A DNA stretch of 33,126 nt from an uncultured Verrucomicrobiota bacterium. Lineage in GTDB: Bacteria; Verrucomicrobiota; Kiritimatiellia; Kiritimatiellales; Tichowtungiaceae. Below the pieces are notes generated by a model, which ran no database searches, was not told the origin of the DNA, and saw only the letters and a program-made list of their open reading frames with translations. The stretch covers positions 1-33,126 of the forward strand of contig CAIKWE010000016.1 in the NCBI GenBank assembly GCA_903831085.1, given 5' to 3'. Positions 4,069 to 33,126 of this stretch are shown here, piece after piece (positions within the stretch are counted from its first letter, which is position 1; each line of letters opens with the position of its first letter). Made by a program: the position numbers and the translations under genes.

Positions 4069-4110
4069 TTCCAACCCTTGGAAGAATTTCTTCCAAGGGT
4101 TGGATTTTTT
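4069..4110 (+). terminator. Terminator built from two inverted copies of the TTCCAA-N3-TTGGAA element
   Basis: A 17-bp perfect stem (4070-4086 with 4088-4104) is followed by TTTTTT at 4105-4110. Each arm is itself a copy of the 15-bp palindrome: TTCCAACCCTTGGAA at 4069-4083 and TTCCAAGGGTTGGAT at 4091-4105. It ends the lyase gene at 4041. The T-run overlaps the stop codon of the convergent gene (4109-4111), so the same hairpin may also affect that transcript, though the opposite strand has no T-run. Confidence 0.88.
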
Positions 4111-6130
4111 ATTCCGCGAGGCGGACGCCGATGCGGTAGAACCCTCTGGTTTCAACGGCGTGAACCGTATCGGTCCAGCTGTTCTGCGGCCAGACGATCG
4201 AAGTTTCCAATGTTTGGAAACGTTCTGTCAGCGACGGACTCCATTCGATGGTGTAAACGCGGCCTTCAACGGCATCCCAGCTCAGCACAGAACGGTCGGT
4301 CTGGCGGAGTTCAAACCGGGACTGCGAATCCAGCGGATCAGATCCGGCCAGCATTTCCGCCGCGTTATTTTGGCCGTCGCTGTCGGAGTCGCTGATTGGA
4401 TCGATGATGACGCAGGTGCCGATGGTTGCGTCGCGGCTGTCGCGCACCAGCATGCTGGTTTGCGTTCCATCACCCCAGAGCATGACGTTCGGGTTAGTTG
4501 CATGGGTGCTGATATTTTCAAAACTGATCTGCAGCCAGTCGCTGCCATCGGCGAGCCGGTAGGTGTTGCCGTAGTGCAGTCCGGTGAAGGCGTTGGTGAT
4601 GGTGCTTTCAACCTGAACGTTCAGTTCCTTCGCGGTGATCTGGAGACCTTCGTCCGGCATTTTGAGATAGTCCGTTCCGCTTTCGCTCCAGAGAAGTACT
4701 TCGGGATCGAGACGGGTGGAAGCGGAGCGTTCAAACGAAATCTGTTTCCACCATGACCCGTCGGCGAGGTGAAGAAGGGTTTCGTATCCGAAACCGTAGA
4801 AATATCCGGCGACCGTGCTGTGAGTTTTTGTATCAACGGGCTGCGCGGAGGTTTCCACGGTACACGTGCCGACAACCCGATCACTGCGGTCGAGAAAGCG
4901 CATCATCTGCTTGCCGTCTTTTATCCAGCGCCATGCTGTGACGGATGCGGCGTTGCTGGAAATGTTTTCAAACGAAATCTGTTTCCAAACGGTTCCGTCG
5001 GCGAGCTGATAAAGGTTCTGATAGCGCAGACCGGTGAACGTATTGGTCACGGCGCTTTCCGTGACGGCCAGCTGCGTCACCGCAACATAGCCGGTGACGT
5101 TGGTCACGGTCATCCGCCGCTGGTATCCCAGATAGTTTGTAATCGTCATGTATGGACGGTACAACGCCGGCGAGACGGTTTTTGAGCCCGCCGCGCTTTG
5201 TTGCCAGAACTGTCCGTTGACAAGTTTGAAAATGGTGTCGCCGCTCCAGCCGTAAAAATTTCCGGCGATCCGTGAACTTACGGCGACAACGGGGACGACC
5301 GTGATGGTGATCGTTTCGCTGTCGGCACCGTCTTTATTCGTGGCGCAGAATGTGACCGAATAAATTCCGGTCGGCGCGGCGTTGTTCCAGGTGAACACAC
5401 CGTTTGTAAAGACGGCTCCGGCCGGCAGGTTGGTCGCGGTGAGCGTGACGGGATCGTTGTCCTCCGGATCGCCGCCGGAAACCATAAAAGAAAGAAGCCC
5501 CAATTCGGTAACCTCCCGGGTTCCGATGGGATCAAGAACCGGCGGAAAATCGGCAATGACGTGGTCGCCGGAGACCAGGATGCTGTCCAATATGGATTTA
5601 TCGCCGATGTTCGGATTGTTCATTCGTGCGACGATCTGAACGGTTGAGCCGCACAGATTGCTCTGCGCCGCGGTCGCGGCGGTCCAGTTGCCGATACTGA
5701 CGGGATTAATCGCGAACGCAATTTCCGCCCCGCCGTCCAGACGGTAAAAAAGCTTCACATACTTATTGGTGCTGGTGGATGAGCCGGTTTCGGAAGTGAC
5801 GACGGACAGGGAAACGTTGGTGTATCCGCTGATGCTGATGACGGCAGAAGACCAGACAGCTTCTCCATCCACATTGACCGCTTCCATGCGCCCGCCGCTG
5901 GTGGGGACCGCCATAAAATAATCCGCGGCGCTTCCGCCGCTCGGGGTCAGTGTGGCGCAGGCATGAACATCAATAGTCCAGTTGGTCGTTCCGCCGGGAT
6001 AATTAGTCGGCCCCAGCCCGGTGACACCGACGTTGGTGTAACTGCTGAAATCCTCCTGCCAGATCGTCGCGGCTTCCGCAGCGCCCGAAAGAGCGCAGGC
6101 GAGCAGGCAGGCAGGGAGAAGACGTTTCAT
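4109..6130 (-). CDS. Secreted multi-repeat protein encoded with a secretin
   Basis: A 673-residue exported protein of unknown function. The ATG at 6130 is chosen because a signal peptide begins there (MKRLLPACLLACALSGAAEA); the in-frame TTG two codons upstream is less likely. No clear SD is seen, but the gene starts 12 bases after the secretin stop, suggesting co-transcription. In order: an N-terminal beta-rich domain (about 25-195), an Ig/cadherin-like domain (about 196-280, DPEDNDPVTLTATNLP), four repeats of about 74 residues starting near 288, 362, 440 and 512 (pattern FYG or FTG, then L-DG-W-QISFE), an acidic EF-hand-like stretch (DSDSDGQ, about 580-600), and a C-terminal domain ending FYRIGVRLAE. 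The repeats do not match a family I know. It may be the substrate or outer partner of the secretin (inference). Confidence 0.8.
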   Translation of the reverse strand: MKRLLPACLLACALSGAAEAATIWQEDFSSYTNVGVTGLGPTNYPGGTTNWTIDVHACATLTPSGGSAADYFMAVPTSGGRMEAVNVDGEAVWSSAVISISGYTNVSLSVVTSETGSSTSTNKYVKLFYRLDGGAEIAFAINPVSIGNWTAATAAQSNLCGSTVQIVARMNNPNIGDKSILDSILVSGDHVIADFPPVLDPIGTREVTELGLLSFMVSGGDPEDNDPVTLTATNLPAGAVFTNGVFTWNNAAPTGIYSVTFCATNKDGADSETITITVVPVVAVSSRIAGNFYGWSGDTIFKLVNGQFWQQSAAGSKTVSPALYRPYMTITNYLGYQRRMTVTNVTGYVAVTQLAVTESAVTNTFTGLRYQNLYQLADGTVWKQISFENISSNAASVTAWRWIKDGKQMMRFLDRSDRVVGTCTVETSAQPVDTKTHSTVAGYFYGFGYETLLHLADGSWWKQISFERSASTRLDPEVLLWSESGTDYLKMPDEGLQITAKELNVQVESTITNAFTGLHYGNTYRLADGSDWLQISFENISTHATNPNVMLWGDGTQTSMLVRDSRDATIGTCVIIDPISDSDSDGQNNAAEMLAGSDPLDSQSRFELRQTDRSVLSWDAVEGRVYTIEWSPSLTERFQTLETSIVWPQNSWTDTVHAVETRGFYRIGVRLAE
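4205..4219. repeat. TTCCAA-N3-TTGGAA palindrome, exact copy inside a CDS
   Basis: TTCCAATGTTTGGAA with flanking T and A, so 17 bases are palindromic around the 3-base centre. On the coding strand it encodes F-Q-T-L-E near the C-terminus of the repeat protein. Confidence 0.85.
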
Positions 6131-6142
6131 AAACAAAGCAGC

Positions 6143-7906
6143 TTACCGGACGGTTTTCTTGTAACCGGAAGCGTCCACCTGGTTGGCGGTGACGAAAATC
6201 AGCAGGTTGCGTTTAACGGTTTTTTCGCCCTCCGAGCGGAAGAGCCGTCCGAGCAGCGGAATTTTTCCAAGGATTGGAACGCTGTCCTTGAAGGTTTCGA
6301 GTTGCTCCTTGATCAGTCCGCCCATGGCGATTGTGCTGCCGTTCTCAATCGTCACCGTCGTATTCACCTTGCGGGTTTTGAATACCGGCCGGCGGGCGAT
6401 CAGCCGATCGGCATGGCTTGTCCGGTTTTCTTCGCGGCGGGTTAAAAAATCAATCAGGTTGTTATTGGCCGGAGTATCGCTGTTCATATCCAGTGTTTCG
6501 TCGCCGAAGGCCGGCCAAATAGTGCCGACATGCTGTTCATCAAAGCCGGCCAGCTCGCGGATTTCCGGCGAAAGCTTCAGGTTGATGGTGCCGTTTTCGG
6601 GGTCGAGTTCGGGAGTTACTTCGAGCATCACGCCGGTTTTTTCTTCCGCATAGTCGAGCGGAACGAGACTGGGCTGGGAGTAACGCTCCGTAGCAACTTC
6701 AAAGGCCGTCGGATACCAGTGCACTTCGCCGACATGAATCGTGGCAGGCTCTCCGCTCTTGGTGAGGATTTTCGGCGCGGACAACAGGTCGGAGCCCGCC
6801 GTGCGTTCCAGCGCGCTAATGACGAGATCCACCGGAGTTCCTTTTATCTTTTGAACCAAAAGCTCACCGGCGGCACCGACCAGTCCCGCGCCGGTTGGAT
6901 CAGCGATAGCGCCCGCGTAGGAATTAAACGAAGTTGCACGGCCCGCCGCGCTCACGCCGGTGTCGAAGGCGTCCTGGCCGTTGCGAAGAGTATCGGTGAA
7001 GAGTTTCTGTCCGCCGGGCATGCCATAGTGGCCGGCGGTCAGTTCCGTTCCGGCGGCTCCAAGTGTCCAGTCAAAACCCAGTTCATCAAGAGCCCCCTGC
7101 TCAACTTCAATGAATTTGGTTTCAATTTCAACCTGCCGCGAACGTTCTTCAAGCGCCTTGCGGCTGTAATGGTCGAGCAGTGCGGTCACTTTTTCAATAT
7201 GTTTCGGCACGTTGCGCACCAGCAGTACGTTGAATCCCGGATTGTACTGCGCGCTGGCGCCGGGCGGGAAGGGCACGGTGCTGAAAAAGTCGCGCACATC
7301 CAGCAGTCCGCCGGGCTGTCCATCCGTTCGTGCGACCATTTTGCCGCCGACCGACGGCATAATATCGAACTCGGCCATCACCATTTGTTGCGGTGCCTCG
7401 TAGTTAACCGGCGTCAGGCTGACCATATTGGGGCCGATCTCATATTTCATGCCCGACAGCTGTGTGACGATGTCGAGCGTTTCGAGCATGGAAAGGTCGG
7501 TGCCGGAAAACGTCACCGGCGGCGGGGTTTCGGATGTTCCGAAAACCACTAGATTCGCGCCCCTGCATGCGGGATCAAGCTTGCGGCAGAGAGAGGAAAG
7601 TTCCAGCACCACCTGCTGAATATCAGCATTTTGAAAAGAGATGGCCGGGATGCGGATGCCGTCCAGTTTGCCGCGCAGAGCGGCGGCCTGATTTTCAGCA
7701 TCTGTCATCTCGCGCGGCCCGGCGAGGCTATTCGCTTTTTCTCCCTCGGCCTGCGGGGCGTTCCAGGCCGCCTGCACATTTTTCAGCATGCGGGCGCGGG
7801 TTGTTTCATAGCTTTTTGTTTCGCGGGCGTCTTCGGCGGGCGCGAAGCGCGGAACGAGAAATGCCAAAACGAGAGCGATAACCAGCCGACCGGAGACCTT
7901 GCTCAT
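6143..7906 (-). CDS. Secretin-family outer-membrane protein (type II/III secretion, PF00263)
   Basis: A 587-residue secretin predicted to form a multimeric outer-membrane channel. The ATG at 7906 has a near-perfect SD (GGAGGT, 4 bases upstream) and a signal peptide (MSKVSGRLVIALVLAFLVPRF); the reading frame extends further upstream but without support. An N-domain with SFQNADIQQVVLELSSL lies near residues 85-110, a secretin N-type segment (FNVLLVRNVPKHIEKVTALLD) near 245, and the C-terminal core ends in the typical VPILGKIPLLGRLF and NLLIFVTANQV motifs. No ATPase, pseudopilin or inner-membrane gene is adjacent. It is the first gene of a two-gene operon with the repeat protein. Whether it belongs to a full type II system encoded elsewhere cannot be told. 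Confidence 0.9.
   Translation of the reverse strand: MSKVSGRLVIALVLAFLVPRFAPAEDARETKSYETTRARMLKNVQAAWNAPQAEGEKANSLAGPREMTDAENQAAALRGKLDGIRIPAISFQNADIQQVVLELSSLCRKLDPACRGANLVVFGTSETPPPVTFSGTDLSMLETLDIVTQLSGMKYEIGPNMVSLTPVNYEAPQQMVMAEFDIMPSVGGKMVARTDGQPGGLLDVRDFFSTVPFPPGASAQYNPGFNVLLVRNVPKHIEKVTALLDHYSRKALEERSRQVEIETKFIEVEQGALDELGFDWTLGAAGTELTAGHYGMPGGQKLFTDTLRNGQDAFDTGVSAAGRATSFNSYAGAIADPTGAGLVGAAGELLVQKIKGTPVDLVISALERTAGSDLLSAPKILTKSGEPATIHVGEVHWYPTAFEVATERYSQPSLVPLDYAEEKTGVMLEVTPELDPENGTINLKLSPEIRELAGFDEQHVGTIWPAFGDETLDMNSDTPANNNLIDFLTRREENRTSHADRLIARRPVFKTRKVNTTVTIENGSTIAMGGLIKEQLETFKDSVPILGKIPLLGRLFRSEGEKTVKRNLLIFVTANQVDASGYKKTVR
6265..6279. repeat. TTCCAA-N3-TTGGAA palindrome, exact copy inside the secretin gene
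   Basis: TTCCAAGGATTGGAA. On the coding strand it encodes P-I-L-G-K in the conserved VPILGKIP motif, a different reading phase from the copy at 4205. Confidence 0.8.
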
Positions 7907-8073
7907 ATTAACCTCCTTGCAAGATGTACTTAAAACTTTCGAAAAGTAATATTTTAAAACACAAACGAGCAAGACATTACCGTTTATTTCGCTGAAATTA
8001 ATAATTCGGGGCCGGTTGATTTCCACGGCGGGAAGTGATAGTTTCTCGCGCTCAATTTGAGGAGGGGTGTCAG

Positions 8074-8140
8074 CCACGTCGTCACTCGCGCTGCGCGCGG
8101 TGATAAGTGGTCCCTTGCCCCGCAAAGCGGGGCGACGGGA
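8074..8140. repeat. Two adjacent hairpins upstream of the GIY-YIG gene
   Basis: The first hairpin, 8074-8110, has outer arms CCAC/GTGG, then TCAC/GTGA around a GC-rich core. The second, 8111-8140, has TCCC/GGGA and a perfect GCCCCGC-AAA-GCGGGGC stem (8117-8123 with 8127-8133). They fill much of the 248-base gap between the divergent secretin and GIY-YIG genes. There is no T-run, so they are more like REP-type palindromes than terminators. Confidence 0.5.
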
Positions 8141-8154
8141 AGTGGTTAAAGAAA

Positions 8155-8400: not shown

Positions 8401-8426
8401 TATATCAGGCTCGAACATTTTAGTGC

Positions 8427-8800: not shown

Positions 8801-8812
8801 GCGAAAAAGGTT

Positions 8813-9691: not shown

Positions 9692-9698
9692 GTGCGGG

Positions 9699-10442
9699 CT
9701 AGAATAGCTCATAAGCCAGTACGCTCAACCCGAAAATGGCGGCGGTTTCAGTTCGCAGGATCTGGTTTCCGAATGTAACGGGAATTGCGCCCGCCGCGAC
9801 AGCGGCGTTGACTTCCTCTGCGGCGAAATCGCCTTCCGGCCCGATCAGCAGGGCGGCAGTCTTGATCTTCAATTTATCCAAAGTTTGGAACGCTTTACGG
9901 AACGGTTTGGCGTTCGGGTGCAGTGAGCCGATAAAAGCCACATCGTATTTTCCAATGTTCGGAAGAATTTCTGTGCCCCAACGCAGTTGGTTTTCCAAAG
10001 GTTGGAATTCCGGCAGCCAGGCGGCACCGCATTGCTGGGCCGCATTGCGGATGATCGCTTCGCCACGTTCGGCCATCTTTTCGATTTTACCGGCGGGCAG
10101 GCTGGCGTTTTGCGTAATGACCGGCTGAATCCGGCGGACGCCCAGTTCGGTCGCCTTTTGCAGAATCAGTTCAAAGCGGTCGGGTTTGCAGACGGCTTGA
10201 ATGAGCGTAATTTCCACGGCGGGTGGCGGAACTGTTTCGCGCGTGATAATCCGAACGGTCACTTCTTTTTTGGTAACGGCTTCAACAATGCCTTCGGCGC
10301 GGGTTCCTACTCCGTCAAACAGCGTCAGCTCCTGACCGGCCTCGACACGCAGAACCCGCGCAAGGTGGTGCGACTCTTCGGGCGAAAGCGCGACGAGGTC
10401 AGCGCTCAGAGTTCCCGGCGGTGTGAAGGAGTTAATCCGCAT
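9699..10442 (-). CDS. rsmE: 16S rRNA (uracil(1498)-N3)-methyltransferase RsmE
   Basis: A SPOUT-family methyltransferase that methylates U1498 of 16S rRNA using SAM. The start at 10442 has GAGGT 7 bases upstream and gives the standard N-terminus (MRINSFTPP); the upstream in-frame start would read through an inverted repeat. An N-terminal PUA-like part contains ESHHLARVLR, and the C-terminal knot contains LLIGPEGDFAAEEV and ILRTETAA, both typical. Its 247 residues fit the family. It follows dnaJ, as in many bacteria with grpE-dnaJ-rsmE order. The gene carries three copies (one exact, two with one mismatch) of the 15-bp palindrome. Confidence 0.95.
   Translation of the reverse strand: MRINSFTPPGTLSADLVALSPEESHHLARVLRVEAGQELTLFDGVGTRAEGIVEAVTKKEVTVRIITRETVPPPAVEITLIQAVCKPDRFELILQKATELGVRRIQPVITQNASLPAGKIEKMAERGEAIIRNAAQQCGAAWLPEFQPLENQLRWGTEILPNIGKYDVAFIGSLHPNAKPFRKAFQTLDKLKIKTAALLIGPEGDFAAEEVNAAVAAGAIPVTFGNQILRTETAAIFGLSVLAYELF
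9876..9890. repeat. TTCCAA-N3-TTGGAA palindrome, one mismatch, in rsmE
   Basis: ATCCAAAGTTTGGAA. On the rsmE strand it reads F-Q-T-L-D. Another copy with one mismatch lies at 9950-9964. Confidence 0.6.
9950..9964. repeat. TTCCAA-N3-TTGGAA palindrome, one mismatch, in rsmE
   Basis: TTCCAATGTTCGGAA. On the rsmE strand it reads P-N-I-G-K, a different phase from the copies on either side. Confidence 0.6.
9993..10007. repeat. TTCCAA-N3-TTGGAA palindrome, exact copy in rsmE
   Basis: TTCCAAAGGTTGGAA. On the rsmE strand it reads F-Q-P-L-E. Confidence 0.8.
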
Positions 10443-10456
10443 CAGAGTGACCTCAT

Positions 10457-10520
10457 GGAAGATTGGAAGGGTGGAAGAGCAGTGTCCGGCATTTTCATTC
10501 TTCCACTCTTCCATCCTTCC
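10457..10520. repeat. Inverted repeat between dnaJ and rsmE
   Basis: Arms of 22 bases at 10457-10478 and 10499-10520 match at 19 positions around a 20-base centre. Each arm is made of GGAAG-type units (GGAAG, TGGAAG, GTGGAAGA), so it is partly a simple-repeat purine tract against its complement. It fills most of the 82-base gap between the dnaJ stop and rsmE start, and lies just before the rsmE SD. It could modulate expression between the two genes. Confidence 0.55.
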
Positions 10521-12254: not shown

Positions 12255-12269
12255 TTTTAAAATTCCTTT

Positions 12270-12336
12270 TTTCAAGGGTTGGAACTTTTTATCCGGTTTT
12301 CCAAAAGTTTAAAAAAACCAGTTCCAAGGGCTGGAA
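12270..12336. repeat. Cluster of palindrome-like elements in the grpE leader
   Basis: Three copies of the TTCCAA-N3-TTGGAA motif lie within 67 bases: TTTCAAGGGTTGGAA (12270-12284, one mismatch), TTCCAAAAGTTTAAA (12299-12313, two or more), and TTCCAAGGGCTGGAA (12322-12336, one). The nearest is 15 bases upstream of the grpE start. They could act in regulation or be parts of a repeat insertion. Confidence 0.55.
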
Positions 12337-15132: not shown

Positions 15133-15692
15133 CAGAACGCCTCCAGGGCTTCGATCACTTCACACAGCGGCAGACCGACGACATTGGAATAGGAGCCGTC
15201 GATCCGCCGCACCATACTTGCCGCGCCGTTTTGAATGGCGTAGGCCCCCGCTTTATCGAGCGGGTCGCCGGTCGCGACGTAGGCCGCAATCTCTTCTTCC
15301 GAAAGGTCGCGGAACAGCACGGCGGTGGCGGCATGAAAACAGACGGATTTTTCCGAAGATCGGAGACAGACGCCAGTGATCACCTCGTGCATTTTTCCGG
15401 AGAGCAGGCGAAGCATCGCCCGGGCATCGTTGTCATCGGCGGGTTTGCCAAGAATGCGTCCTTCGATTGCCACCACCGTGTCCGCGCCAAGGAGAACCGT
15501 ATTTAGCGGGATAGAGACACTTTCCGCTTTTTCACGTGCGGTGCGGACAGCGTACTCCACCGGCGTTTCGCCGGCGTGCAATTTTTCGTCGGCGTCCGGG
15601 CGAACCGTCCTGAACGAAAGTCCCGCGCTTTTCAGCAGTTCGGAGCGCCGCGGCGAGGTGCTGGCCAGAATCAGTTTTTGTTTGGTTTCCAT
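15132..15692 (-). CDS. maf: Maf-like nucleotide pyrophosphatase
   Basis: Maf-family house-cleaning NTP pyrophosphatase (about 186 residues) linked to septum control. The signature SPRRSELL lies at 13-20, then GADTVV (69-74) and GKP (82-84). The start at METKQK is chosen by family alignment. An in-frame ATG six codons upstream (15710, MLSFQPMETK) is an alternative, and neither has a clear SD. The ATG at 15692 sits inside a near-copy of the 15-bp palindrome (15687-15701, one mismatch). It is upstream of rsmI on the same strand, and divergent from the UDP-xylose synthase gene. Confidence 0.9.
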   Translation of the reverse strand: METKQKLILASTSPRRSELLKSAGLSFRTVRPDADEKLHAGETPVEYAVRTAREKAESVSIPLNTVLLGADTVVAIEGRILGKPADDNDARAMLRLLSGKMHEVITGVCLRSSEKSVCFHAATAVLFRDLSEEEIAAYVATGDPLDKAGAYAIQNGAASMVRRIDGSYSNVVGLPLCEVIEALEAF

Positions 15693-15701
15693 AGGTTGGA
15701 A
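15687..15701. repeat. TTCCAA-N3-TTGGAA palindrome, one mismatch, at the maf start codon
   Basis: TTCCATAGGTTGGAA. The mismatch creates the CAT that is the ATG of maf on the minus strand. If the upstream start is used, this segment is translated as F-Q-P-M-E. Confidence 0.6.
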
Positions 15702-15745
15702 AGATAGCATTGTCCTGTTTTTGAAAAGCAAAGGATAAACAACGC

Positions 15746-16703: not shown

Positions 16704-18011
16704 ATGAAAAAGACGGACGCACCGATTCTGAAATACAGCGCCAAAGGGCGCTCGGTTAAGATTGAAGATTTTCTGCTTCGTCCGCCGGTTGAAAAGGGCG
16801 CGGACAAAATCGCCGCCGGAGTTTTGGCCGACATCAAGGCGCACGGCGACAGCGCCGTCGTCAAATATGCCCGGCAGTTCGACCGCTCAACGGTTACTCT
16901 CGCCACGCTGCGCGTCACAAAGGCCGAAATCGCTGTCGCCAAAAAAATGGTGGATGCCGATTTCAAGAAGGCGGCCAAAGAGGCGCACAAACGCATTACC
17001 CAATTTGCAATCGCCGGACTTCGTGAAGACTGGCGGATGCCCGCGCCGCAGGGCGGTTGGCTCGGCGAAAAATTTGTCGCGCTTGATCGTGTCGGCGCCT
17101 ACATTCCCGGCGGCGCCGCGCCGCTGGCCTCGACCGCGCTGATGACGCTGACGCTGGCGCAGGTCGCCGGCGTTCCGGAGCGGGTCGCCTGCACACCTGC
17201 TGGAGCGGACGGCAAAGTGAATCCCTACATTCTTTTTGCGCTCGATCTGGCGGGCGCGACCGAAATTTATAAAGTTGGCGGCATTCAGGCCATCGGCGCG
17301 ATGGCCTACGGCACGAAGACGATCAAGAAGGTTCAGAAAATCGTTGGCCCCGGCGGACCGTACGTTACCGCCGCCAAGCGGCTGGTTTACGGCGAAGTCG
17401 CGCTCGACATGGTCGCCGGCCCGAGCGAAATCGCCGTGCTGGCCGACGAAACCGCCAATCCAGCGCACGTCGCTGCCGACCTGCTTTCGCAGGCCGAACA
17501 CGGCACCGGCTCCGAAAAAGCGCTGTTGGTAACTACCTCCGAAAAAATGGCGAAAGCCGTCCGCGCCGAACTCGAAATTCAGTCGGCAAAACTAATTCGC
17601 CAAAAACCGGTCGCCGAGGTGCTGGCACGCGGCTGTATTCTGGTCGTGGTTCCGAACATTGGAAAAGGGATTGAGCTTTGCAACCGCTTTGCACCGGAGC
17701 ACATGGAAGTCATCGTCAAAAACGCTGAGAAGGTGGCTGAAAAAATCAAAACGGCCGGTGCGATTTTCATGGGTCCGTGGACGCCGGAAGCAGTCGGCGA
17801 TTTCGCGGCGGGGCCGAGCCACGTTCTGCCGACCGGCGGAACGGCGGCCTTTTTCTCCGGCCTGACGGTCGAAGACTTCCGCCGCCGCGTCAGCCTGATT
17901 CACTTCACCAAAGAAGACCTGAAAGAAACCGTTTCTGTTGTTGAAGTGTTCGGCCGCGTCGAAACGCTCGACGCCCACGCTCTCTCTGCCACCATCCGGC
18001 TTGAGAAATAA
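16704..18011 (+). CDS. hisD: Histidinol dehydrogenase
   Basis: Catalyses the last two steps of histidine biosynthesis, oxidising histidinol to histidine with two NAD and a zinc ion. Characteristic segments are RVGAYIPGG, VAGPSEIAVLAD, AEHGTGSEKALL, FAPEHMEV and the AGPSHVLPTGGTA block with the metal and substrate ligands. The length of 435 residues is normal. hisC begins 2 bases after the stop. The palindrome variant TTCCGAACATTGGAA lies inside it at 17650-17664, reading P-N-I-G-K. Confidence 0.97.
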   Translation: MKKTDAPILKYSAKGRSVKIEDFLLRPPVEKGADKIAAGVLADIKAHGDSAVVKYARQFDRSTVTLATLRVTKAEIAVAKKMVDADFKKAAKEAHKRITQFAIAGLREDWRMPAPQGGWLGEKFVALDRVGAYIPGGAAPLASTALMTLTLAQVAGVPERVACTPAGADGKVNPYILFALDLAGATEIYKVGGIQAIGAMAYGTKTIKKVQKIVGPGGPYVTAAKRLVYGEVALDMVAGPSEIAVLADETANPAHVAADLLSQAEHGTGSEKALLVTTSEKMAKAVRAELEIQSAKLIRQKPVAEVLARGCILVVVPNIGKGIELCNRFAPEHMEVIVKNAEKVAEKIKTAGAIFMGPWTPEAVGDFAAGPSHVLPTGGTAAFFSGLTVEDFRRRVSLIHFTKEDLKETVSVVEVFGRVETLDAHALSATIRLEK

Positions 18012-19266: not shown

Positions 19267-19281
19267 TTCCGAACATCGGAA
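19267..19281. repeat. Variant palindrome TTCCGA-N3-TCGGAA between convergent genes
   Basis: TTCCGAACATCGGAA keeps perfect arms, with both the fifth-position A and its partner changed together (A to G, T to C). Paired changes keep the palindrome intact. A second copy of the same variant lies at 21482-21496, inside the DUF2264 gene. Confidence 0.6.
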
Positions 19282-21185: not shown

Positions 21186-23246
21186 TTAGGAGCAAGCTTC
21201 GCTTCCATCGGCCCTAAGCACCCAGCAGATTTTTCCATCTGCGCCTGCGCGCGCCATGACAACCGGGCCCTTAAACGTCTTGCCGTTCAGCTTAACGGTC
21301 ACGTCCTTAATTTCGCCGAACTGCAGGAAGGCGCGTTCGCCGTCGTAGAACTGAATCTCGACGGTGTTTCCGCTCTGCGCGAATCCAGTCACCCGGTCCG
21401 ACAGTTCTTTAAGGCTGTCCGTTCCCACTTTGCCATACACCATGGAGGCCAGGTAGAACGTATCGGTCGAGTTGCTTTCCATTCCGAGCTTCGGAACCAC
21501 GCTTTGATGATTGCGCACGTTACTGCCGCTGACATCCTCTTGGAAGCCCTGCGCCTTGAACTGTTCCGTGTAGCCGTGGAGGTTCCGGATGAATGTGATC
21601 TTGCCGTCCTTGGAGGCCATCTCGGCGCCCTTGCCGCTGGAAAGCACCGCTTCACCTTCGTCGAAGCCAAGCGGATAACCGCCTTCACGGAACACGAGTC
21701 CGGGGCGCGAGGGTTTGACTTCATGAACATTGATCATGAAATCGTCCTTGACCAGCACGTACGAAGTCGCCGTTCCGAGATCGTTGGCCACCGCGAAGGT
21801 CTTTTCGTCGGTCGCCTTGTCGTACATCCGGTACTTCGAGGCCGCGAAATTGTCAGCCACGTACAGGTTGTCATGATTCCAGCGCTGCCGGAAGTTGATC
21901 CCGTCGGGCGAAAAGGCCAGCGCGTTGTCGCAGTTGAACGATCCGTAGATCGGCCGCCCGTCCTGAGTGAAGATCGAGGAGTAGGCGAAATTCGTGTACT
22001 TCGCATTGTAGTCCGGCTTTTCGTGGTACGGTTTTTGATTCACGATCTGCACATGCCCGGACTTCTGAGTTCCGACAAGTATCAGCCCGGCTTCCTTGAG
22101 CGGCTTGGAAAAATCGCCCTTGTGGATCGGGAGTTTTTCCTCGGTCGTGCTCCAGAACGGATCTGATTCAGAGATGAACAGCATCGAAAACGCCTTGGCC
22201 GCCCACAGCGGCGAGCCGCCGCAATTATAATTTTCCAGCACCCACTCGCTCGGCCGCAGCCAGCCCATGCTCAGGTTGTTGCGATCCGTCAGGATCGGGT
22301 TGTTGAAGTAGAACTTCATCGTGCTGTTGCAGAGCGTTTTCACTTCGCCGGCGCTGATATCCAGACACTTGAGGTGCTGACCCAGCGCGATGGAGGAGAG
22401 GTATCCGAACCGGTAGATCATGGAACGGCCCCAGCACGGAGCGGATCCGTCACCGGAAATGAAATACCGGAAGTCACGGGCGAAATGGCGGACACGCTCT
22501 TTGTGCATTTCGGCCACATCTGGACGGGAATCGCCGTCCAGAATGACCCAAAGCAGATAGTAGAAGTGGAATCCCCACGAATTGTAGTAGTCGATCCGGT
22601 TGATCTTGCCGTCCCGGTACCAGCCGCCGCCGATGTACATGTGGTCGCAGGCCTTCAGACGCGCATCGAGGTTTTCCTGTGAATACGGCATGCCCAGTTT
22701 TTTAAGCACGGCGTTCGTAACCACGCTGAAGAGCAGCCAGTTGTTCTGGTGATATGCCACCTTGTTGCACGAGTTCAGATAGTTCGCGACCTGCGTCTTT
22801 TCCGCCGGCGAGAACTTGTTCCAAATCTTCTCGCGTGACAGGTACAAACCCCAGCTCAGCGCCGCCATCTCGACAAGGTGCTGAGCATAGTCGTAGATGT
22901 CGCCCCAATATTCGGGGTGCTTGGGATCGGTTCCGGCCAGAATGCCGCGACGGTAGAATTCAGCGACGTCCACAGTCTCTTTGCCAAAGGTCAGCGTATC
23001 ACCCTTGGACGCGCTCAGCCATGGGCCGGCCATAAACATGGAGCGCGAAAAGCCCTCCAGTTCGTCCGCAACCTGCCCGTGATGACTGCGCGGCCCGGGG
23101 ATGCGCTGCCGCGCATTGCCCGGGGAGGCGCTGTTCAGAACGCCCTGCATGAGGACAAACATGGCTTCTTCCCAATGCCGCCGCGTCCATCCGGTGATGG
23201 GCGCGGTTTTGGGATCGAGAGGTGTCGTGAACTTCATCGTCTTCAT
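21186..23246 (-). CDS. DUF2264-domain protein, possible glycoside hydrolase (GH154-like)
   Basis: A 686-residue protein that matches my memory of DUF2264 (PF10022), a family linked to glycoside hydrolases of the GH154 type, some of which are beta-glucuronidases. An N-terminal alpha/alpha-toroid region (about 20-360, with HQNNWLLFSVVTNAVL and GGGWYRDGKINRIDYYNSWGF) is followed by a beta-rich C-terminal part. There is no signal peptide, so it acts in the cytoplasm on imported oligosaccharides. The ATG at 23246 has AAGGCGG nearby. It follows the GH3 gene by 34 bases. The family link and substrate need a domain search to confirm. Confidence 0.75.
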   Translation of the reverse strand: MKTMKFTTPLDPKTAPITGWTRRHWEEAMFVLMQGVLNSASPGNARQRIPGPRSHHGQVADELEGFSRSMFMAGPWLSASKGDTLTFGKETVDVAEFYRRGILAGTDPKHPEYWGDIYDYAQHLVEMAALSWGLYLSREKIWNKFSPAEKTQVANYLNSCNKVAYHQNNWLLFSVVTNAVLKKLGMPYSQENLDARLKACDHMYIGGGWYRDGKINRIDYYNSWGFHFYYLLWVILDGDSRPDVAEMHKERVRHFARDFRYFISGDGSAPCWGRSMIYRFGYLSSIALGQHLKCLDISAGEVKTLCNSTMKFYFNNPILTDRNNLSMGWLRPSEWVLENYNCGGSPLWAAKAFSMLFISESDPFWSTTEEKLPIHKGDFSKPLKEAGLILVGTQKSGHVQIVNQKPYHEKPDYNAKYTNFAYSSIFTQDGRPIYGSFNCDNALAFSPDGINFRQRWNHDNLYVADNFAASKYRMYDKATDEKTFAVANDLGTATSYVLVKDDFMINVHEVKPSRPGLVFREGGYPLGFDEGEAVLSSGKGAEMASKDGKITFIRNLHGYTEQFKAQGFQEDVSGSNVRNHQSVVPKLGMESNSTDTFYLASMVYGKVGTDSLKELSDRVTGFAQSGNTVEIQFYDGERAFLQFGEIKDVTVKLNGKTFKGPVVMARAGADGKICWVLRADGSEACS
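21482..21496. repeat. Variant palindrome TTCCGA-N3-TCGGAA in the DUF2264 gene
   Basis: TTCCGAGCTTCGGAA, with perfect arms. On the coding strand it reads P-K-L-G-M. Confidence 0.55.
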
Positions 23247-27273: not shown

Positions 27274-28071
27274 ATGGAAAATCAGACCGCACGTTTTGTC
27301 TCGGCTCTGCTTGTGTTCATCGGTTTCTGCGCCACGTCCGTTGCGGCAGGAACTGTTGATCCCGCCAAGGTCGTTATCATCAAGGCGGATGATTTTAGAG
27401 TTCCTTCCCCGGCCTGGATCGCTTTTCTGAAAGCCTCCCGGGAGGAGGGCGTCAAAGTCGGACTTGGGGCTATCGTCACCAGCATCGCCGGAAAAGATTC
27501 TACCGCCCGATGGATGCAGGAACAGCAGGCGTTGGGCGATGTCGAGTTCTGGAATCATGGCTGGGATCACACCCGCTGGACAACCAATGGAACAGAAGTC
27601 AGTGAGTTCAAAGGATCCGGTCTGGCGTACATGCGGCAGCACCTGACCGATTCTCAGGCTGGACTGAACAGCGCTTCAGGTAAAGACGTTACAGCCTTCG
27701 GAACCGGCTACAATGGGTTCGATACAAACACCGCTGCCGTCATCAACGCCACGCCCGCCCTGCGTTTATTTTTCGCCCGCAACGTTTCCACAGTTCGGAA
27801 TCTTTTGGATTCCCGCGTGGCCGTGGTGAAAATTATCGGAGAATCCGACGGCACTGGCAAACCCAGCGCGGCGAAATTCGAAACCGAGTTCCCGCCCGGA
27901 ACGCCGGGGCCGATTGCAATTCAACTTCACCCTGCTAATTCCAGTTTCGATGCGGCGCGGCTGGACGAATACCGGAAGATTTTGCAATACCTGCGAACCA
28001 ACGGATATTCCATTCTGCTACCTGCGGAATATGTCGAAACTCTTTCGGCAACCTCAGCGGCGACCCGCTGA
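27274..28071 (+). CDS. Secreted polysaccharide-deacetylase-like protein
   Basis: A 265-residue exported protein (signal peptide about 1-25). It shows the NodB-type deacetylase layout: Asp39-Asp40 in IIKADDFR, and His95 with His99 in EFWNHGWDHT as likely metal ligands, with another His in IQLHPANSSF. Carbohydrate esterase 4 enzymes remove acetyl groups from polysaccharides. Weak points: the motif spacing is not standard CE4, so this may be a divergent branch. GAGG lies a few bases before the ATG. It lies 80 bases after the beta-sandwich gene, and 182 bases before the giant gene. Deacetylation could expose a polymer such as acetylated alginate to lyases (inference). Confidence 0.7.
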   Translation: MENQTARFVSALLVFIGFCATSVAAGTVDPAKVVIIKADDFRVPSPAWIAFLKASREEGVKVGLGAIVTSIAGKDSTARWMQEQQALGDVEFWNHGWDHTRWTTNGTEVSEFKGSGLAYMRQHLTDSQAGLNSASGKDVTAFGTGYNGFDTNTAAVINATPALRLFFARNVSTVRNLLDSRVAVVKIIGESDGTGKPSAAKFETEFPPGTPGPIAIQLHPANSSFDAARLDEYRKILQYLRTNGYSILLPAEYVETLSATSAATR

Positions 28072-28175
28072 CCGTCAGCTCCATCTTCGCCGCCAAACGG
28101 CTTTTGTTGCGGCCGCTTCCTAAAATCGGAACAGGAGAGAGTCCGCCTTTTTGCCTGATGAAAATCGGTATAAAC

Positions 28176-28252: not shown

Positions 28253-31200
28253 ATGAAAAAATTTCTTGGAATGATGTTCTTGGCGGCGGGACTGAGCGGG
28301 GCGGTCAGCGCCGCGACTAATTATTTTACCACGGCAGGCAGCACGAACTGGATTTGTCCTGCCGGCGTTACTTCTGTTCAGGTGGAATGCTGGGGCGGCG
28401 GCGGCGCGGGTGGTGGCGCATCAAGAAACGGCGCGACCAACACGACTGCGATTGGCGGCGGCGGGGCCGGCGGCGCGTATGCCAGAGACAATTCTTATTC
28501 TGTCACTCCGGGAAACACCTACTACATCAACGTGGGTGCCGGCGGAGTGAGTGTCTTGGTCGATTCGAATACGGTTCCCGGCGGAGACTCCTGGTTTAAC
28601 ACGAACAATTTCCCTTCGTCGGTCATCATCGCCAAAGGGGGTGCCGGAGGTGGAACCGTGTTGCTTCAAGTTTCCGGCACCAGGTACGGCGCGGGCGGGG
28701 CGGGCACAACGAACGGCAGCGTCGGCGACATGGTCTATGCAGGAGGAAGCGGCGGGACACCTTCTGGCACCACATATGGCGGCAGCGGCGGCAGTAGCGG
28801 CGGGACCGGCAGCGCCGGTAATCCAGGCTCCCCGACGAACGGCCTGGGCGCGGCGGCAGTTACGGGCGGCGGCAATGGTGGAGATGCGAATCCAGGCACC
28901 GGTTCAGGAGTCGGTAAGACGCCGACCATTCCTCCGGGCGGCGGCGGCGGCGGCGCCAGATGCGCTAATACTTCGACGGTTTTAATAGGCGGAACAGGCA
29001 GCGTAGGCCGGGTTGTTATAACTTATTCCGTTATTGATGCTGCGCCCAGCGTGAGCCTGACGGCACCGGACAACGGCGCCAGCTTTGTAGCGCCGGCGTC
29101 GATCGCGATGACAGCCGACGCCTCGTCTGCGACCGGCACGATTACGACGGTGGATTTTTATAATGGCGCGACGTTGCTCGGATCCGACACCACTTCGCCT
29201 TATGCCTATACTTGGACAAATGTGGCGGCGGGTTCGTACAGTCTGACAGCCCGGGCCACGGATAACAGCGGGGCGGTCAGCACGTCAGCGATTGCTGTGA
29301 TCACGGTCACAGCGACTAATAATAATACCGCTGGTACCGCGCTCAATAATAGCGTCTGGGCGTTCCAAGGCACGAGCGGACGGATTATCCGCCAGCCGGA
29401 CGCGCTGGGCAACCGTGTGCTCGATTATTCCGGCGTCGGCTACAAGGGAGGAACCGTGCCGATTCCGGTTGTGGCTGTGAAAACCAATATCTCGCCGGTT
29501 GCCGGCGATAACACCGCGAACATTCAGAATGCCATCAACTATGTGTCTGGACTGTCGCTGGTGAACGGCTTCCGCGGCGCGGTATACCTGAACGTCGGCG
29601 AATATCCCATTTCCAATTCCATCACCATTAGCGCCAGCGGCGTTGTCCTGCGCGGTGCGGGTGCCAGCACGAACGGTACGGGAACCATCCTCCGTGCCGC
29701 CGGGGCTCGACCCACGGCCAGCACCTCAAACGAAGTCGCACTCATCTATATCTCCGGTTCCGGCTCGGGCTCCGTTAGCGGGACGGCCCGCAGTATCACG
29801 AACACCTATGTTCCTGTCGGTGCGCTCAGCTTCAACGTAAGCAGTACCAGCGGCCTGACTGTGGGCGGCCGGGTCTTGATCACCCGCGCCAGCCCGGCGA
29901 ATTGGATTACAGACATTGGAATGGATCAGGTGTCACCCGCATGGACCGCAGGAAAATTTGATGTCAAGAGCGAACGCTTTATCACTCGCATTGAAGGAAC
30001 CCGAGTCACGATCGATGCGCCGCTGACCTGCGCCATCGAATCGAAATACGGCGGCGGTACGATCCAGCCCTATTCCTGGTCCGGCCGCATCAGTAACGTC
30101 GGTATCGAGGACATCTTTGGTGTGTCTGATTATAACCCCGCAATTACTTCCACAGTGGGTAGTACTCCGGCCTACCCTGCCGACGAACAGCACGTCTGGA
30201 TTTTCATTAATTCAACCGCAGTGGAAAATGCCTGGGTGCAGCGCGTGACAGTGAAATCCTTCGCCTACTCCTGCGTTACCATGGATGAGGGCACGCGCAA
30301 CATGACTGTGCGCGACAGCATCTCGCTGGATCCGGTCTCCATCATTGACGGCGGACGGCGCTATGCGTTCGGTTTGAGGGACGCCCAGAACTGCCTCGTG
30401 CAAAATTGTTACACCCGCAACGACCGGCATCAGTTTGTCACCGATTCACTCGACACTGGGCCCAATGTATTTGTGGACGGACTCAGTGAAACCGCCCACA
30501 GCGAAGCCGGCCCGCATTTCCGCTGGGGCACGGGCTCCATGTGGGACAATATCACCGTGAACGGCGACTATCTGGCCGTCAAAAACCGCGGTAATATGGG
30601 AACATCACACGGCTGGGCCGGCGCCAACGAAGTGGTATGGAACGCCAAGGCGGACGGGCTTATTGTTGAAAATCCGCCGACAGCCCGCAACTGGCTCATC
30701 GGTAGCATCGGCCCGCTGATCAACAATACTGCCGCTATTCCCTATCCAGCACCTGCGGGCACTTATGATTCTCGCAACACGAATGTGTTCCCAAACAGTC
30801 TTTACTACGCGCAACTGCAGGATCGGCTCGCTGCGCCGAACCGGGAAACGCGTGAATACTGGCTGGGTGTGATTGACGGTTTCGCAAACACCATTACCCG
30901 CGACGTCGTGGCTCTGGATACAACATGGAGCAACGCCGTGAAATCCATAGCTTCCGGCCAGCCGCTCAATCCGTTCAACGTCGTGACCAACAACCACTGG
31001 ATTCCGTTCACCTTCAATTACTCTCTCGGAGCCACCGATCAGGTGGTTGCGGCCACGCTTTCGCTCTCGCTGCGTGCAACCAACTCGTCCGCAAGCAATG
31101 TACTTTATCTGGGCAGCACCAACAACAGCTTCACCTTTTCCGATCTTGGATGGCAGCCCATTGGAACGGGCACCAATACCACCGTCCGTGTGCTGGATCT

Positions 31201-33126
31201 GGGCAGCCAATTGAATTTACTGGCCAGCGGCCAGCTCAATGTCGCCGTGCAGGGTGATGCGGGGATTGACTGGGCGATGCTCGAACTTCAGGTCGCGCCG
31301 GCTCAGGCGAGTCGCACCAATACCATCCTGCCCGAAGCCGACGCGTACGTCCGCGGCGGCGCATCCCGGACGAACAACTACGGCACCGACACCACGCTCG
31401 CAGTCAAAACATCCACTTCCACCAACGAACAACAGCAGGCCTACCTGCGCTGGGATCTTACGGGCCTCGCCACCAATATCCTGCAGGCGCGCATTCGGCT
31501 CACGCCAACCAGCGTAGACACCAACGGATACGAGCATGGCATCGCGCTTGTCACCAACAGCACCTGGAGTGAAAGCACGATCAACTGGACCAACCAGCCC
31601 GGCGGAGGCAAACGGTTCGCCACCTGGATTCCCGCCGCGAATGTGCCGGTCGAATTCGTTGTCACTCCGCAGGTGCAGGCCGCGCTGGATGCCGACGGCA
31701 AATTGTCGCTTGAGTTGTTTTCGGTGAATAATACTGGCGGTTCGGGGTTGGTCAGCTACGCCTCGCGCGAGTATGCCGACTCCGCATACCGTCCGCAACT
31801 GTTGCTTATTTACGCCGGGAGTTATCTGAGCGTGGACCTGACGGCTCCGGCCAACGGAGCGAACTACGCAGCGCCAGCGTCGATTACGATGATAGCCGAC
31901 GCCTCGTCGGCGACCAGCACGATTACAGCAGTGGACTTCTACAACGGAGCGACCCTGCTCGGAACCGACACCGGCGCGCCTTACGTCTATATGTGGACGG
32001 GTGTGGCGGCGGGATCGTACAACCTGACAGCCCGGGTCACGGACAACAACGGGTTAGTTCGCACCTCGGCGGTCGTGGTGGTTACCGTGAACCCCACGTA
32101 TGCTCTGACGGTTACCAGCGGCAGCGGTAGCGGCACGTACCTCAACGGACAGCAGGTGACGATCTCGGCGAGCACTCCGGCAACCGGGAAGACCTTTTAC
32201 CGGTGGACCGGCGACGCCGCGTACGTGAACAACACGACGTACACCAACGCCACCGTCACCATGTCGACCAATCCGGTCAGCCTGACGGCGACGTATGTGG
32301 ACGCCTATTACGCCCTGACGGTCAACAGCGGGACCGGCGGCGGCGGGACCTATACCAACGGAACGCAGGTGGCGATCTCAGCGAACGCTCCAACCATTGG
32401 AAAGACCTTTTATCGGTGGACCGGCGACACCCAGTATTTGGCCAATTCTAATTCCGCCAGCACCACGGTGACCATGCCAGCAAGTGCTGTCACTCTGACG
32501 GCGACGTATGTGGATATCTATTACGCACTGACGGTCACCGGCGGCACCGGCGGCGGCTCGTACACCAATGCACAGCAGGTGACGATCTCGGCGAATGCTC
32601 CAACCCTTGGAAAGGCCTTCGTCCAGTGGACCGGCGACACCCAGTATTTGGCTAATTCTAATTCCGCGAGCACCACGGTGACCATGTCGACCAATGCGGT
32701 CAGCCTGAGCGCGACGTATGCAGATGTCTATTATTCCCTGACGGTCACCGGCGGCAGCGGCAGCGGCGCGTACACCAACGCAACGAAGGTGGCGATCTCG
32801 GCGGATGTTCCAACCATTGGAAAGGCCTTCAGTCAGTGGATCGGCGACACGCAGTACGTGAACAACGTCACCTACACGAACGCTCTGGTCACTATGTCAA
32901 CCAACGCAGTCAGCCTGACCGCAACCTATGTAGACGTTCTTTACACGCTGACGGTTACCGGCGGCAGCGGCAGCGGTTCTTCGTACACCAACGCGCAGGT
33001 GGTGGAGATATCCGCGGACGCTCCGGCACCCGGAATGACCTTCGACAAGTGGACCGGCGCCACGCAGTACGTGAACAACATCACTTACACCAACGCGCTG
33101 GTCACCATGCCGGCACAAGCCGTCGC
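28253..33126 (+). CDS. Giant secreted multidomain beta-helix protein (3' end outside window)
   Basis: At least 1,624 codons stay open to the window edge. A signal peptide (MKKFLGMMFLAAGLSGAVSA) begins at 28253. In order: a glycine-rich region (about 50-255); an Ig-like domain of Big_7 type (about 267-352); a right-handed beta-helix of pectate-lyase-like type (about 365-885, with DNTANIQNAINYV and SGVVLRGAG near its start); a beta-sandwich stretch (about 890-1015); a CBM96/DNRLRE-like module (about 1020-1190, with EADAYVRGG and RWDL); a second Big_7 domain (about 1194-1279); and five InlB-type repeats from residue 1283. It is probably a surface polysaccharide-binding or -cleaving protein. The catalytic residues of the helix are not identified, so lyase activity is inferred. 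No clear SD is seen. Confidence 0.85.
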   Translation, partial: MKKFLGMMFLAAGLSGAVSAATNYFTTAGSTNWICPAGVTSVQVECWGGGGAGGGASRNGATNTTAIGGGGAGGAYARDNSYSVTPGNTYYINVGAGGVSVLVDSNTVPGGDSWFNTNNFPSSVIIAKGGAGGGTVLLQVSGTRYGAGGAGTTNGSVGDMVYAGGSGGTPSGTTYGGSGGSSGGTGSAGNPGSPTNGLGAAAVTGGGNGGDANPGTGSGVGKTPTIPPGGGGGGARCANTSTVLIGGTGSVGRVVITYSVIDAAPSVSLTAPDNGASFVAPASIAMTADASSATGTITTVDFYNGATLLGSDTTSPYAYTWTNVAAGSYSLTARATDNSGAVSTSAIAVITVTATNNNTAGTALNNSVWAFQGTSGRIIRQPDALGNRVLDYSGVGYKGGTVPIPVVAVKTNISPVAGDNTANIQNAINYVSGLSLVNGFRGAVYLNVGEYPISNSITISASGVVLRGAGASTNGTGTILRAAGARPTASTSNEVALIYISGSGSGSVSGTARSITNTYVPVGALSFNVSSTSGLTVGGRVLITRASPANWITDIGMDQVSPAWTAGKFDVKSERFITRIEGTRVTIDAPLTCAIESKYGGGTIQPYSWSGRISNVGIEDIFGVSDYNPAITSTVGSTPAYPADEQHVWIFINSTAVENAWVQRVTVKSFAYSCVTMDEGTRNMTVRDSISLDPVSIIDGGRRYAFGLRDAQNCLVQNCYTRNDRHQFVTDSLDTGPNVFVDGLSETAHSEAGPHFRWGTGSMWDNITVNGDYLAVKNRGNMGTSHGWAGANEVVWNAKADGLIVENPPTARNWLIGSIGPLINNTAAIPYPAPAGTYDSRNTNVFPNSLYYAQLQDRLAAPNRETREYWLGVIDGFANTITRDVVALDTTWSNAVKSIASGQPLNPFNVVTNNHWIPFTFNYSLGATDQVVAATLSLSLRATNSSASNVLYLGSTNNSFTFSDLGWQPIGTGTNTTVRVLDLGSQLNLLASGQLNVAVQGDAGIDWAMLELQVAPAQASRTNTILPEADAYVRGGASRTNNYGTDTTLAVKTSTSTNEQQQAYLRWDLTGLATNILQARIRLTPTSVDTNGYEHGIALVTNSTWSESTINWTNQPGGGKRFATWIPAANVPVEFVVTPQVQAALDADGKLSLELFSVNNTGGSGLVSYASREYADSAYRPQLLLIYAGSYLSVDLTAPANGANYAAPASITMIADASSATSTITAVDFYNGATLLGTDTGAPYVYMWTGVAAGSYNLTARVTDNNGLVRTSAVVVVTVNPTYALTVTSGSGSGTYLNGQQVTISASTPATGKTFYRWTGDAAYVNNTTYTNATVTMSTNPVSLTATYVDAYYALTVNSGTGGGGTYTNGTQVAISANAPTIGKTFYRWTGDTQYLANSNSASTTVTMPASAVTLTATYVDIYYALTVTGGTGGGSYTNAQQVTISANAPTLGKAFVQWTGDTQYLANSNSASTTVTMSTNAVSLSATYADVYYSLTVTGGSGSGAYTNATKVAISADVPTIGKAFSQWIGDTQYVNNVTYTNALVTMSTNAVSLTATYVDVLYTLTVTGGSGSGSSYTNAQVVEISADAPAPGMTFDKWTGATQYVNNITYTNALVTMPAQAV
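29051..29308 (+). repeat. First of two near-identical Ig-like (Big_7) segments
   Basis: 86 codons that match the segment at 31832-32089 without any gap over their whole length, with the shared core VDFYNGATLLG and VAAGSY. The two lie about 2.5 kb apart inside the same gene. Confidence 0.8.
31832..32089 (+). repeat. Second Ig-like (Big_7) segment
   Basis: 86 codons colinear with 29051-29308. It directly precedes the InlB-type repeats and differs at about a fifth to a quarter of positions, consistent with an internal duplication. Confidence 0.8.
32388..32402. repeat. TTCCAA-N3-TTGGAA palindrome, one mismatch, in InlB repeat 2
   Basis: CTCCAACCATTGGAA reading P-T-I-G-K. Sister copies are at 32598-32612 (repeat 3, one mismatch) and 32808-32822 (repeat 4, exact). 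Confidence 0.6.
32598..32612. repeat. TTCCAA-N3-TTGGAA palindrome, one mismatch, in InlB repeat 3
   Basis: CTCCAACCCTTGGAA reading P-T-L-G-K at the same place in the repeat as the copies in units 2 and 4. The three-base centre differs from the neighbours. Confidence 0.6.
32808..32822. repeat. TTCCAA-N3-TTGGAA palindrome, exact copy in InlB repeat 4
   Basis: TTCCAACCATTGGAA reading P-T-I-G-K. Repeat 1 (P-A-T-G-K) and repeat 5 (P-A-P-G-M) lack the palindrome at this place. Confidence 0.8.

Follow-up and report, generated by a model that had tools for sequence, protein, structure and literature searches.

The matS sites of MatP and the sites of Noc are dispersed palindromes read by a chromosome-organizing protein; they number some tens and are tied to a chromosome domain. 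Fis sites are 15-bp dyads with a YAA-NNN-TTR core, with phased sites upstream of an rRNA promoter, and the bipartite sites of AbrB are inverted TGGNA words a few bases apart, which would match TTCCA-N5-TGGAA. The HIP1 palindrome of cyanobacteria is very over-represented and varies strongly among relatives; there is no settled explanation for palindromes of this kind, HIP1 included, and in the passages of the paper drawn on here its author sets out a methylation-repair model in which HIP1 may be a by-product, yet argues for function (PMC4390886). For Lrp/AsnC proteins, the part of the literature cited here describes palindromic sites clustered on one helical face, two or three turns apart center to center, and FL11 crystallized with a 13-bp palindrome (PMC2995911). 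Here we analyze the palindrome TTCCAA-N3-TTGGAA, which recurs in a stretch of 33,126 nucleotides from an uncultured Verrucomicrobiota bacterium (contig CAIKWE010000016.1, hereafter the window), and for which the original prediction had offered four readings: a highly iterated palindrome like HIP1, a site for a chromosome-organizing protein, an uptake-type sequence, or a methylation target. The enrichment of the palindrome proves real and strong, individual sites are conserved, and in four of the five genomes with stretches not picked for arrays the copies are helix-phased. The palindrome is probably the DNA binding site of a putative homodimeric, sequence-specific, chromosome-wide protein of the nucleoid-associated or global-regulator type that would bind cooperatively.

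Enrichment and helical phasing

The window contains six exact copies against a mean of 0.01 in dinucleotide shuffles, none of 100 shuffles attaining six, and 21 copies with at most two mismatches against 1.62 for the shuffles. The enrichment expected from the window extends to the whole source genome (2,138,574 bases in 60 contigs), where 379 exact copies stand against one of the reversed pattern; a 438-kb sample of this genome, the window included, has 75 exact copies against 0.05–0.14 expected under Markov models of order 1 to 5. The motif is in this respect a palindromic oligomer far above chance genome-wide, as highly iterated palindromes are. The three-base gap is fixed: when k in TTCCAA-Nk-TTGGAA is varied from 0 to 25 in the same sample, all values except 3 give at most one copy each, and k=3 gives 75.

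In the window's genome the site extends to the consensus TTTTCCAA-NSN-TTGGAAAA. In the four groups of genomes profiled, the middle base is C or G in 94–100% of exact copies and the commonest flanks are T on the 5' side and A on the 3' side; the outer pair of the central triplet is varied, with GCC/GGC favored in G048 (G numbers are our handles for genomes). Different flanks are found in G057, AAAAC before and GTTTT after several copies. Half-site positions 6 and 5 show the most frequent single changes in the source-genome sample, in both cases from A to G. No account of this motif was found in the titles and abstract openings of the open-licence papers searched; an earlier report elsewhere is possible.

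The spacing analysis took adjacent sites of no more than one mismatch that lie 19–130 bp apart, and a pair was scored as in phase if its distance deviated by 2 bp or less from a multiple of 10.5; distances below 16 or 19 bp were excluded, among them a distance of 1 and another of 9 in G010. Motif-rich genomes with stretches not picked for arrays were the source genome, G010, G011 (a congener), G048 and G018, and four of these five are phased: adjacent pairs are in phase in 34 of 35 cases in the source genome, 20 of 20 in G010, 27 of 27 in G011 and 55 of 56 in G048, compared with 44.6% by chance. Leaving out the dominant 30–33 bp class, the counts are 22/23, 16/16, 13/13 and 5/6, respectively, and when all G010 pairs 16–130 bp apart with two mismatches allowed are considered, 60 of 60 are in phase. 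The distances between neighbors are whole helical turns, about 21, 31, 42, 52 and 63 bp. The periodogram has its maximum at 10.4 bp in the source genome and G011; the top period of G048, 15.8, is half of 31.5 and arises because almost all spacings in that genome are 31–32 bp. Phasing is visible in the window itself, where six of seven adjacent distances of at most 130 bp are in phase (two mismatches allowed); the original prediction did not mention it. Palindromic sites two or three turns from each other on the same helix face are a feature shared with Lrp/AsnC operators; here four, five or more turns occur as well, and G018 is the exception.

Helical phasing and the site-by-site conservation described below point to protein binding. 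Each TTCCAA half would be read by one subunit of a dimer. In the four phased genomes neighboring sites lie on one helix face, preferably three turns apart (31–32 bp) but also two, four, five or more, so that binding of the dimers is probably cooperative, with wrapping or bridging of the DNA. Methylation alone would not account for copies placed at whole turns. A DNA uptake sequence would be dispersed genome-wide, as this motif is; known uptake sequences, however, are asymmetric single words, and helical phasing of pairs is not expected of them, so that such a role is extremely unlikely.

Groups of closely spaced sites (arrays) contain two to seven sites, and four-site arrays are mostly spaced 31-31-31 or 31-32-31. 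Two arrays with symmetric spacings were observed, L313:7082-7263 (22-30-31-31-31-22) and L314:3689-3808 (22-31-30-22). A further set of stretches, from named contigs (at least 115, of which 80 are listed), was selected for arrays; it is uninformative on frequency, and its 31–32 bp spacing is by choice. The stretches of G057, G134, G148 and G201 were likewise picked for arrays.

A mobile REP-type palindromic element, or a repeat spread by duplication, is a further alternative. In G057 arrays have spacers and flanks in common, showing that entire arrays were copied there, and blastn between array regions gave 761 hits of at least 45 bp in G048 and 7243 in the named contigs. Shared palindromes and spacing can account in part for these hits, but a small number are of a length that suggests copied DNA (for example, 83% identity over 178 bp). 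Consecutive spacers, on the other hand, are mostly unalike: 93 of 99 pairs within arrays are less than 70% identical, so most arrays were not built by tandem duplication, and some may be. The identity of adjacent spacers compared with random ones is 0.30 and 0.30 in G048 (18 pairs), 0.27 and 0.39 in G057 (11 pairs), and 0.35 and 0.30 in the set g1 (2 pairs). Six of the seven genomes without a match to a Y1 transposase, the candidate partner of REP-type elements, have four or fewer copies of the motif, four of these six being only 1.1–1.3 Mb in size; but there is no Y1 transposase in G057, G048 has only two weak matches with its 1339 copies, and the motif-poor genomes G054, G044 and G045 have 14, 11 and 11, respectively. 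The transposase is disfavored as a partner of the motif, since it does not track copy number overall, and spread by mobility or duplication is highly improbable as the general explanation.

Half-site variation and conservation of individual sites

A six-bp stem with a three-base loop could also form in RNA, and a terminator, a processing signal or another RNA hairpin would suit the nearness of named-contig arrays to gene ends, as well as the AAAAC/GTTTT flanks of G057, which would extend the stem and leave a T run. A selected stem should show compensatory paired changes above the level expected if the halves vary independently. Such an excess was absent from the three genomes not picked for arrays in which it was counted: palindrome-preserving double changes occur 8 times in the source genome (6.5 expected), once in G011 (1.3 expected) and not at all in G048 (2.3 expected), and the paired TTCCGA/TCGGAA changes in the source genome are about as common as independence predicts. 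In the array-selected named contigs the paired double changes are 6 against 0.5, although opposite-half doubles of all kinds are also raised there (27 against 3.6), as they are in G011 (12 against 5.4). On the sense strand of genes predicted with a simple custom gene-finding script, which was used throughout, single changes of the G.U type and the A.C type number 13:12 in the source genome, 2:5 in G011 and 6:6 in G048, the last ratio coming from doubtful gene starts. Because the halves vary nearly independently and the G.U and A.C types are balanced, the DNA site of a dimer fits better than an RNA stem. Moreover, the spacing tracks the DNA helix, and the palindrome in the four profiled groups is most often preceded by T and followed by A, rather than by a T run past the stem. 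We therefore give the hairpin hardly any credence.

The copies in the window with at most two mismatches are the following (no strand is assigned to the palindromes; the strand of each gene is in brackets):

4069..4083: exact palindrome TTCCAACCCTTGGAA, between predicted genes 2770-4041 (+) and 4109-6136 (-)
4091..4105: one-mismatch copy, 22 bp (2 turns) after the 4069 copy
4205..4219: exact palindrome within predicted gene 4109-6136 (-), 114 bp after the 4091 copy, in phase
6265..6279: exact palindrome within the secretin gene 6143-8125 (-)
9876..9890: one-mismatch copy within the rsmE-like gene 9699-10514 (-)
9950..9964: one-mismatch copy in the rsmE-like gene, 74 bp (7 turns) after the 9876 copy
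9993..10007: exact palindrome in the rsmE-like gene, 43 bp (4 turns) after the 9950 copy
12270..12284: one-mismatch copy overlapping the start of the grpE-like gene 11718-12275 (-)
12299..12313: two-mismatch copy, intergenic, 29 bp after the 12270 copy (out of phase) and 23 bp before the 12322 copy
12322..12336: one-mismatch copy, intergenic
15687..15701: one-mismatch copy within the maf-like gene 15132-15731 (-)
17650..17664: one-mismatch copy within hisD 16704-18011 (+)
19267..19281: paired-change copy TTCCGAACATCGGAA, between predicted genes
19311..19325: exact palindrome near the 3' end of 19286-20131 (-), 44 bp (4 turns) after the 19267 copy
21482..21496: paired-change copy TTCCGAGCTTCGGAA within the DUF2264 gene 21186-23246 (-)
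27786..27800: two-mismatch copy, may be chance
28117..28131: two-mismatch copy, may be chance
29907..29921: two-mismatch copy, may be chance
32388..32402: one-mismatch copy in the first of three 210-bp tandem units
32598..32612: one-mismatch copy in the second 210-bp tandem unit
32808..32822: exact palindrome in the third 210-bp tandem unit

The six exact copies, the nine with one mismatch and the paired changes at 19267 and 21482 are located as originally predicted; the two-mismatch matches at 12299, 27786, 28117 and 29907 are additional. The prediction that the hosts are unrelated also holds, as Pfam matches support the secretin, the RsmE-type RNA methyltransferase, the histidinol dehydrogenase and the xylose-isomerase-like TIM barrel, and the genes flanking arrays are unrelated as well. 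The tandem units at 32388, 32598 and 32808 are 61–78% identical without gaps and belong to a protein in which InlB-type repeats match five times; lying in repeat units, these three copies represent one origin and not three events. Elsewhere in the window, 152-1444 and 2770-4041 encode similar neighboring proteins of 430 and 423 aa, which by eye look like a duplicated pair.

The exact copies at 4205 and 6265 (secretin gene) are retained exactly in the congener G011; the one at 9993, in the rsmE-like gene, is not kept, differing at six bases in G011 and at five in G010. Conservation was counted for exact reference sites with 45–60 aligned flanking bases, sites exact in both genomes being counted in both directions. 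With the lrp locus set aside, all 12 fixed bases are retained in 14 of 25 site-genome pairs (covering 20 distinct sites) among the source genome, G010 and G011, at a flank identity of 70.9%, compared with 881 of 17,860 (4.9%) for the same mask elsewhere in the alignments, which are blastn hits of unchecked orthology with overlapping control masks. Across the genus (14 genomes), 722 of 804 site bases are kept in motif-rich targets versus 76.2% of the flanks, and 35 of 67 pairs are exact; in motif-poor targets, which include G005 with its 233 copies, 365 of 456 site bases are kept (80.0%) versus 79.1% of the flanks, and 4 of 38 pairs are exact, nearly all of these figures coming from one site beside the lrp gene in several species. 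This site lies in coding frame; compared with the G004 copy it has zero or one change in motif-rich species and two to four changes in six of seven motif-poor species, the seventh, G013, being exact. The differences between species are substitutions in place.

Selection would account for this conservation, as could a strong mutational drive. A HIP1-like sequence produced by methylation-linked repair or another such drive, with no structural role, would be an iterated palindrome found in genes in all frames, changed by substitution in place and patchy among relatives, as HIP1 is in the passages cited above (PMC4390886), and the in-gene sites of the source genome indeed have no fixed frame (18, 16 and 9 in the three reading frames). 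A process acting site by site would not, however, space copies by whole helical turns. Furthermore, twelve fixed bases are long for a methylase site. A drive of this kind is thus very unlikely: highly iterated palindrome is apt as a description, and nothing was found that links the motif to methylation in the manner of HIP1 (methyltransferase genes were not searched). Under the preferred reading as a protein binding site, the sites would originate by point mutation in place, within and between genes, and selection would retain them so long as the protein is present; where the motif is rare in relatives, the protein has probably been lost or changed.

Position relative to genes and along the chromosome

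Predicted genes make up 86.5% of the bases of the source-genome sample and contain 43 of 72 exact sites, the other 29 being intergenic. In G048 all 32 in-gene sites fall in the first fifth of predicted genes; taking these as over-long start calls, the motif there is essentially intergenic. In the named contigs 149 of 171 arrays lie outside predicted genes, 133 of them with both neighbors known, and their edges have a median distance of 32 bp to stop codons and 106 bp to starts. Arrays in these contigs are densest in convergent gaps (26 in 12.6 kb), compared with 81 in 96 kb of tandem and 26 in 34 kb of divergent gaps, and exact sites of the source sample are likewise densest there (8 in 6.2 kb, compared with 14 in 32.7 kb of tandem and 5 in 10.4 kb of divergent gaps).

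These positions are what would be seen with a very large ordinary regulon or a transcription roadblock, in which a regulator bound 3' of genes halts read-through and in-gene sites are tolerated noise. The pattern is not general, however: in G011 convergent gaps have no excess (2 exact sites in 8.2 kb versus 13 in 13.1 kb of tandem gaps), and in G048 divergent gaps are as dense in sites as convergent ones. The median distance to 3' ends, observed versus one random placement in the same gaps, is 88 versus 132 bp in the source genome, 84 versus 88 bp in G011 and 64 versus 53 bp in G048; since sites in G011 and G048 are no closer than random placement, a real pull to 3' ends exists in the source genome only, and most exact sites of that genome are within predicted genes. 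A roadblock or regulon is therefore unlikely, though less so than the other alternatives. The putative global binding protein might itself pack the chromosome or block transcription.

No conserved flanking gene is apparent among the 257 proteins beside arrays, which form only small cross-locus clusters, the biggest consisting of six seemingly repetitive proteins. Along the chromosome, site density is uneven across 20 sampled stretches of 20 kb in the single-contig genome G010. Two of the stretches, L254 and L263, have no copies with at most one mismatch and may represent either housekeeping genes or imported DNA.

Range across relatives, candidate readers and known systems

At least one exact copy is present in 51 of 58 genomes (the source genome and 57 relatives), with 567 copies in G010 and 1339 in G048. 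The enrichment anticipated in relatives is confirmed and confined: in a draw of 288 genomes from the phylum, 27 of 97 genomes of the window's class (probably Kiritimatiellia) have 20 or more copies, and the 191 genomes of other classes have five or fewer each. Contrasts occur within genera (170 and 2; 151 and 5; 110 and 1), so that congeners with hundreds of copies versus few or none provide a natural on/off comparison. The 80 array stretches listed come from bins labelled Kiritimatiellae or similar, Lentisphaerae, Verrucomicrobia and 'uncultured bacterium', with one bin each labelled Spartobacteria and Firmicutes. Arrays are also present on three viral contigs; that of one, L143:10589-10653, is accompanied by reading frames resembling a transposable phage.

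In the motif-poor genomes, TTCCGA-N3-TCGGAA was rejected as a replacement motif, having just 0–27 copies per genome over the 58, and the search for de novo gapped palindromes in motif-poor stretches gave nothing convincing in small samples. An ancestral regulon was rejected too, as the neighbors are unrelated (10 proteins, five of six loci scanned). Some copies in these genomes (L273, L275, L276) adjoin or lie in genes that look defense-related, namely a ResIII helicase, a HARE-HTH protein, a SMODS-like match below the cut-off and a Schlafen-group helicase; they were perhaps imported from motif-rich relatives.

Several families were considered as the reader of the palindrome. Lrp/AsnC proteins were considered because the site geometry pointed to them. 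PF01037 matches 52 of 58 genomes, the source genome included (48 with one match, 4 with two, 6 with none), motif-rich and motif-free alike, and has no match in G027 (65 copies) and G032 (88 copies), both incomplete genomes. Over 14 congeners, with G045, G046b and G047x left out of the alignment and none recovered from L229, the recognition helix has 0 of 10 invariant positions and the ligand domain 68 of 101. Lrp/AsnC is disfavored as the reader given this variable helix and its presence where the motif is absent, and a wider search for AsnC-type HTH domains (PF13404) found no family tracking the motif. This class-wide, mostly single-copy protein (L196:8566-9081 and orthologues), with its conserved ligand domain and freely varying recognition helix, may, judging by the alignment, have lost sequence-specific DNA binding. 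AbrB is likewise disfavored, since PF04014 is unmatched in the single-contig G010 and also in G002, G011, G020 and G057. HTH_8 was found in 57 of 58 genomes among the matches listed, and the helix TTRRIL[RS]YR in 19 of 20 HTH_8 proteins retrieved, in both cases from motif-rich and motif-poor genomes, so that this family does not discriminate between the two. HTH_8 with this helix (L293-L312) follows a receiver domain in the window's genus and is a short separate reading frame in the sister family.

Several observations weigh against a chromosome-wide binding protein. No reader was found among the candidates (Lrp/AsnC, AbrB, Y1 transposase, HTH_8). Phasing is lacking in G018 (5 of 9 adjacent pairs; 199 kb with 60 exact sites); relatives from its family, pooled into a small set, have 4 of 4 pairs in phase, or 6 of 8 with two mismatches. 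The excess of paired double changes in the array-selected contigs departs from independent halves, and adjacent spacers are slightly more alike than random ones in the named contigs (0.38 versus 0.29; 62 pairs) and clearly more alike in G134, G148 and G201 (0.54 versus 0.25; 6 pairs). The motif-poor side of the conservation test depends almost entirely on the site beside lrp. A range of 0 to 1339 copies among relatives is odd for an essential organizer, and the 20 stretches of G010 have no evident origin or terminus domain and no tie to its two GC-skew switches.

Nevertheless, of the four readings first offered, a site for a chromosome-organizing protein fits best, given the phasing, the independent halves, the conservation and the unrelated flanks. 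It is possible, though we put it forward tentatively, that a lineage-specific nucleoid protein uses a packing code of hundreds to more than 1000 inherited helix-phased operators, repeatedly gained and lost in the class, as a bacterial counterpart of nucleosome positioning with discrete operators. If so, the bacterium would write the architecture of its chromosome into point mutations across its genes.

The palindrome can be compared with several known systems. Like Fis sites of enterobacteria, it is a 15-bp dyad with phased sites; unlike them, its outer bases are fixed and its copies lie beside unrelated genes, and HTH_8 occurs in motif-rich and motif-poor genomes alike. It shares dispersion with the matS/MatP and Noc sites, with a reader that is here putative, and differs from them in having up to more than 1000 copies and no domain apparent in the G010 sample. 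It differs from AbrB systems in that an AbrB-domain match is absent from several motif-rich genomes, single-contig G010 included. Like HIP1 (GCGATCGC) as described in the cited passages, it is heavily over-represented and variable among relatives (PMC4390886), but HIP1 has eight contiguous bases, whereas here 12 fixed bases surround a three-base gap and the copies are helix-phased. The likeness to Lrp/AsnC (feast/famine) operators lies in palindromic sites clustered on one helical face, as in the part of that work cited here (PMC2995911), whereas the recognition helix of the Lrp-type protein of this class is not conserved and the protein is also present in motif-free genomes.

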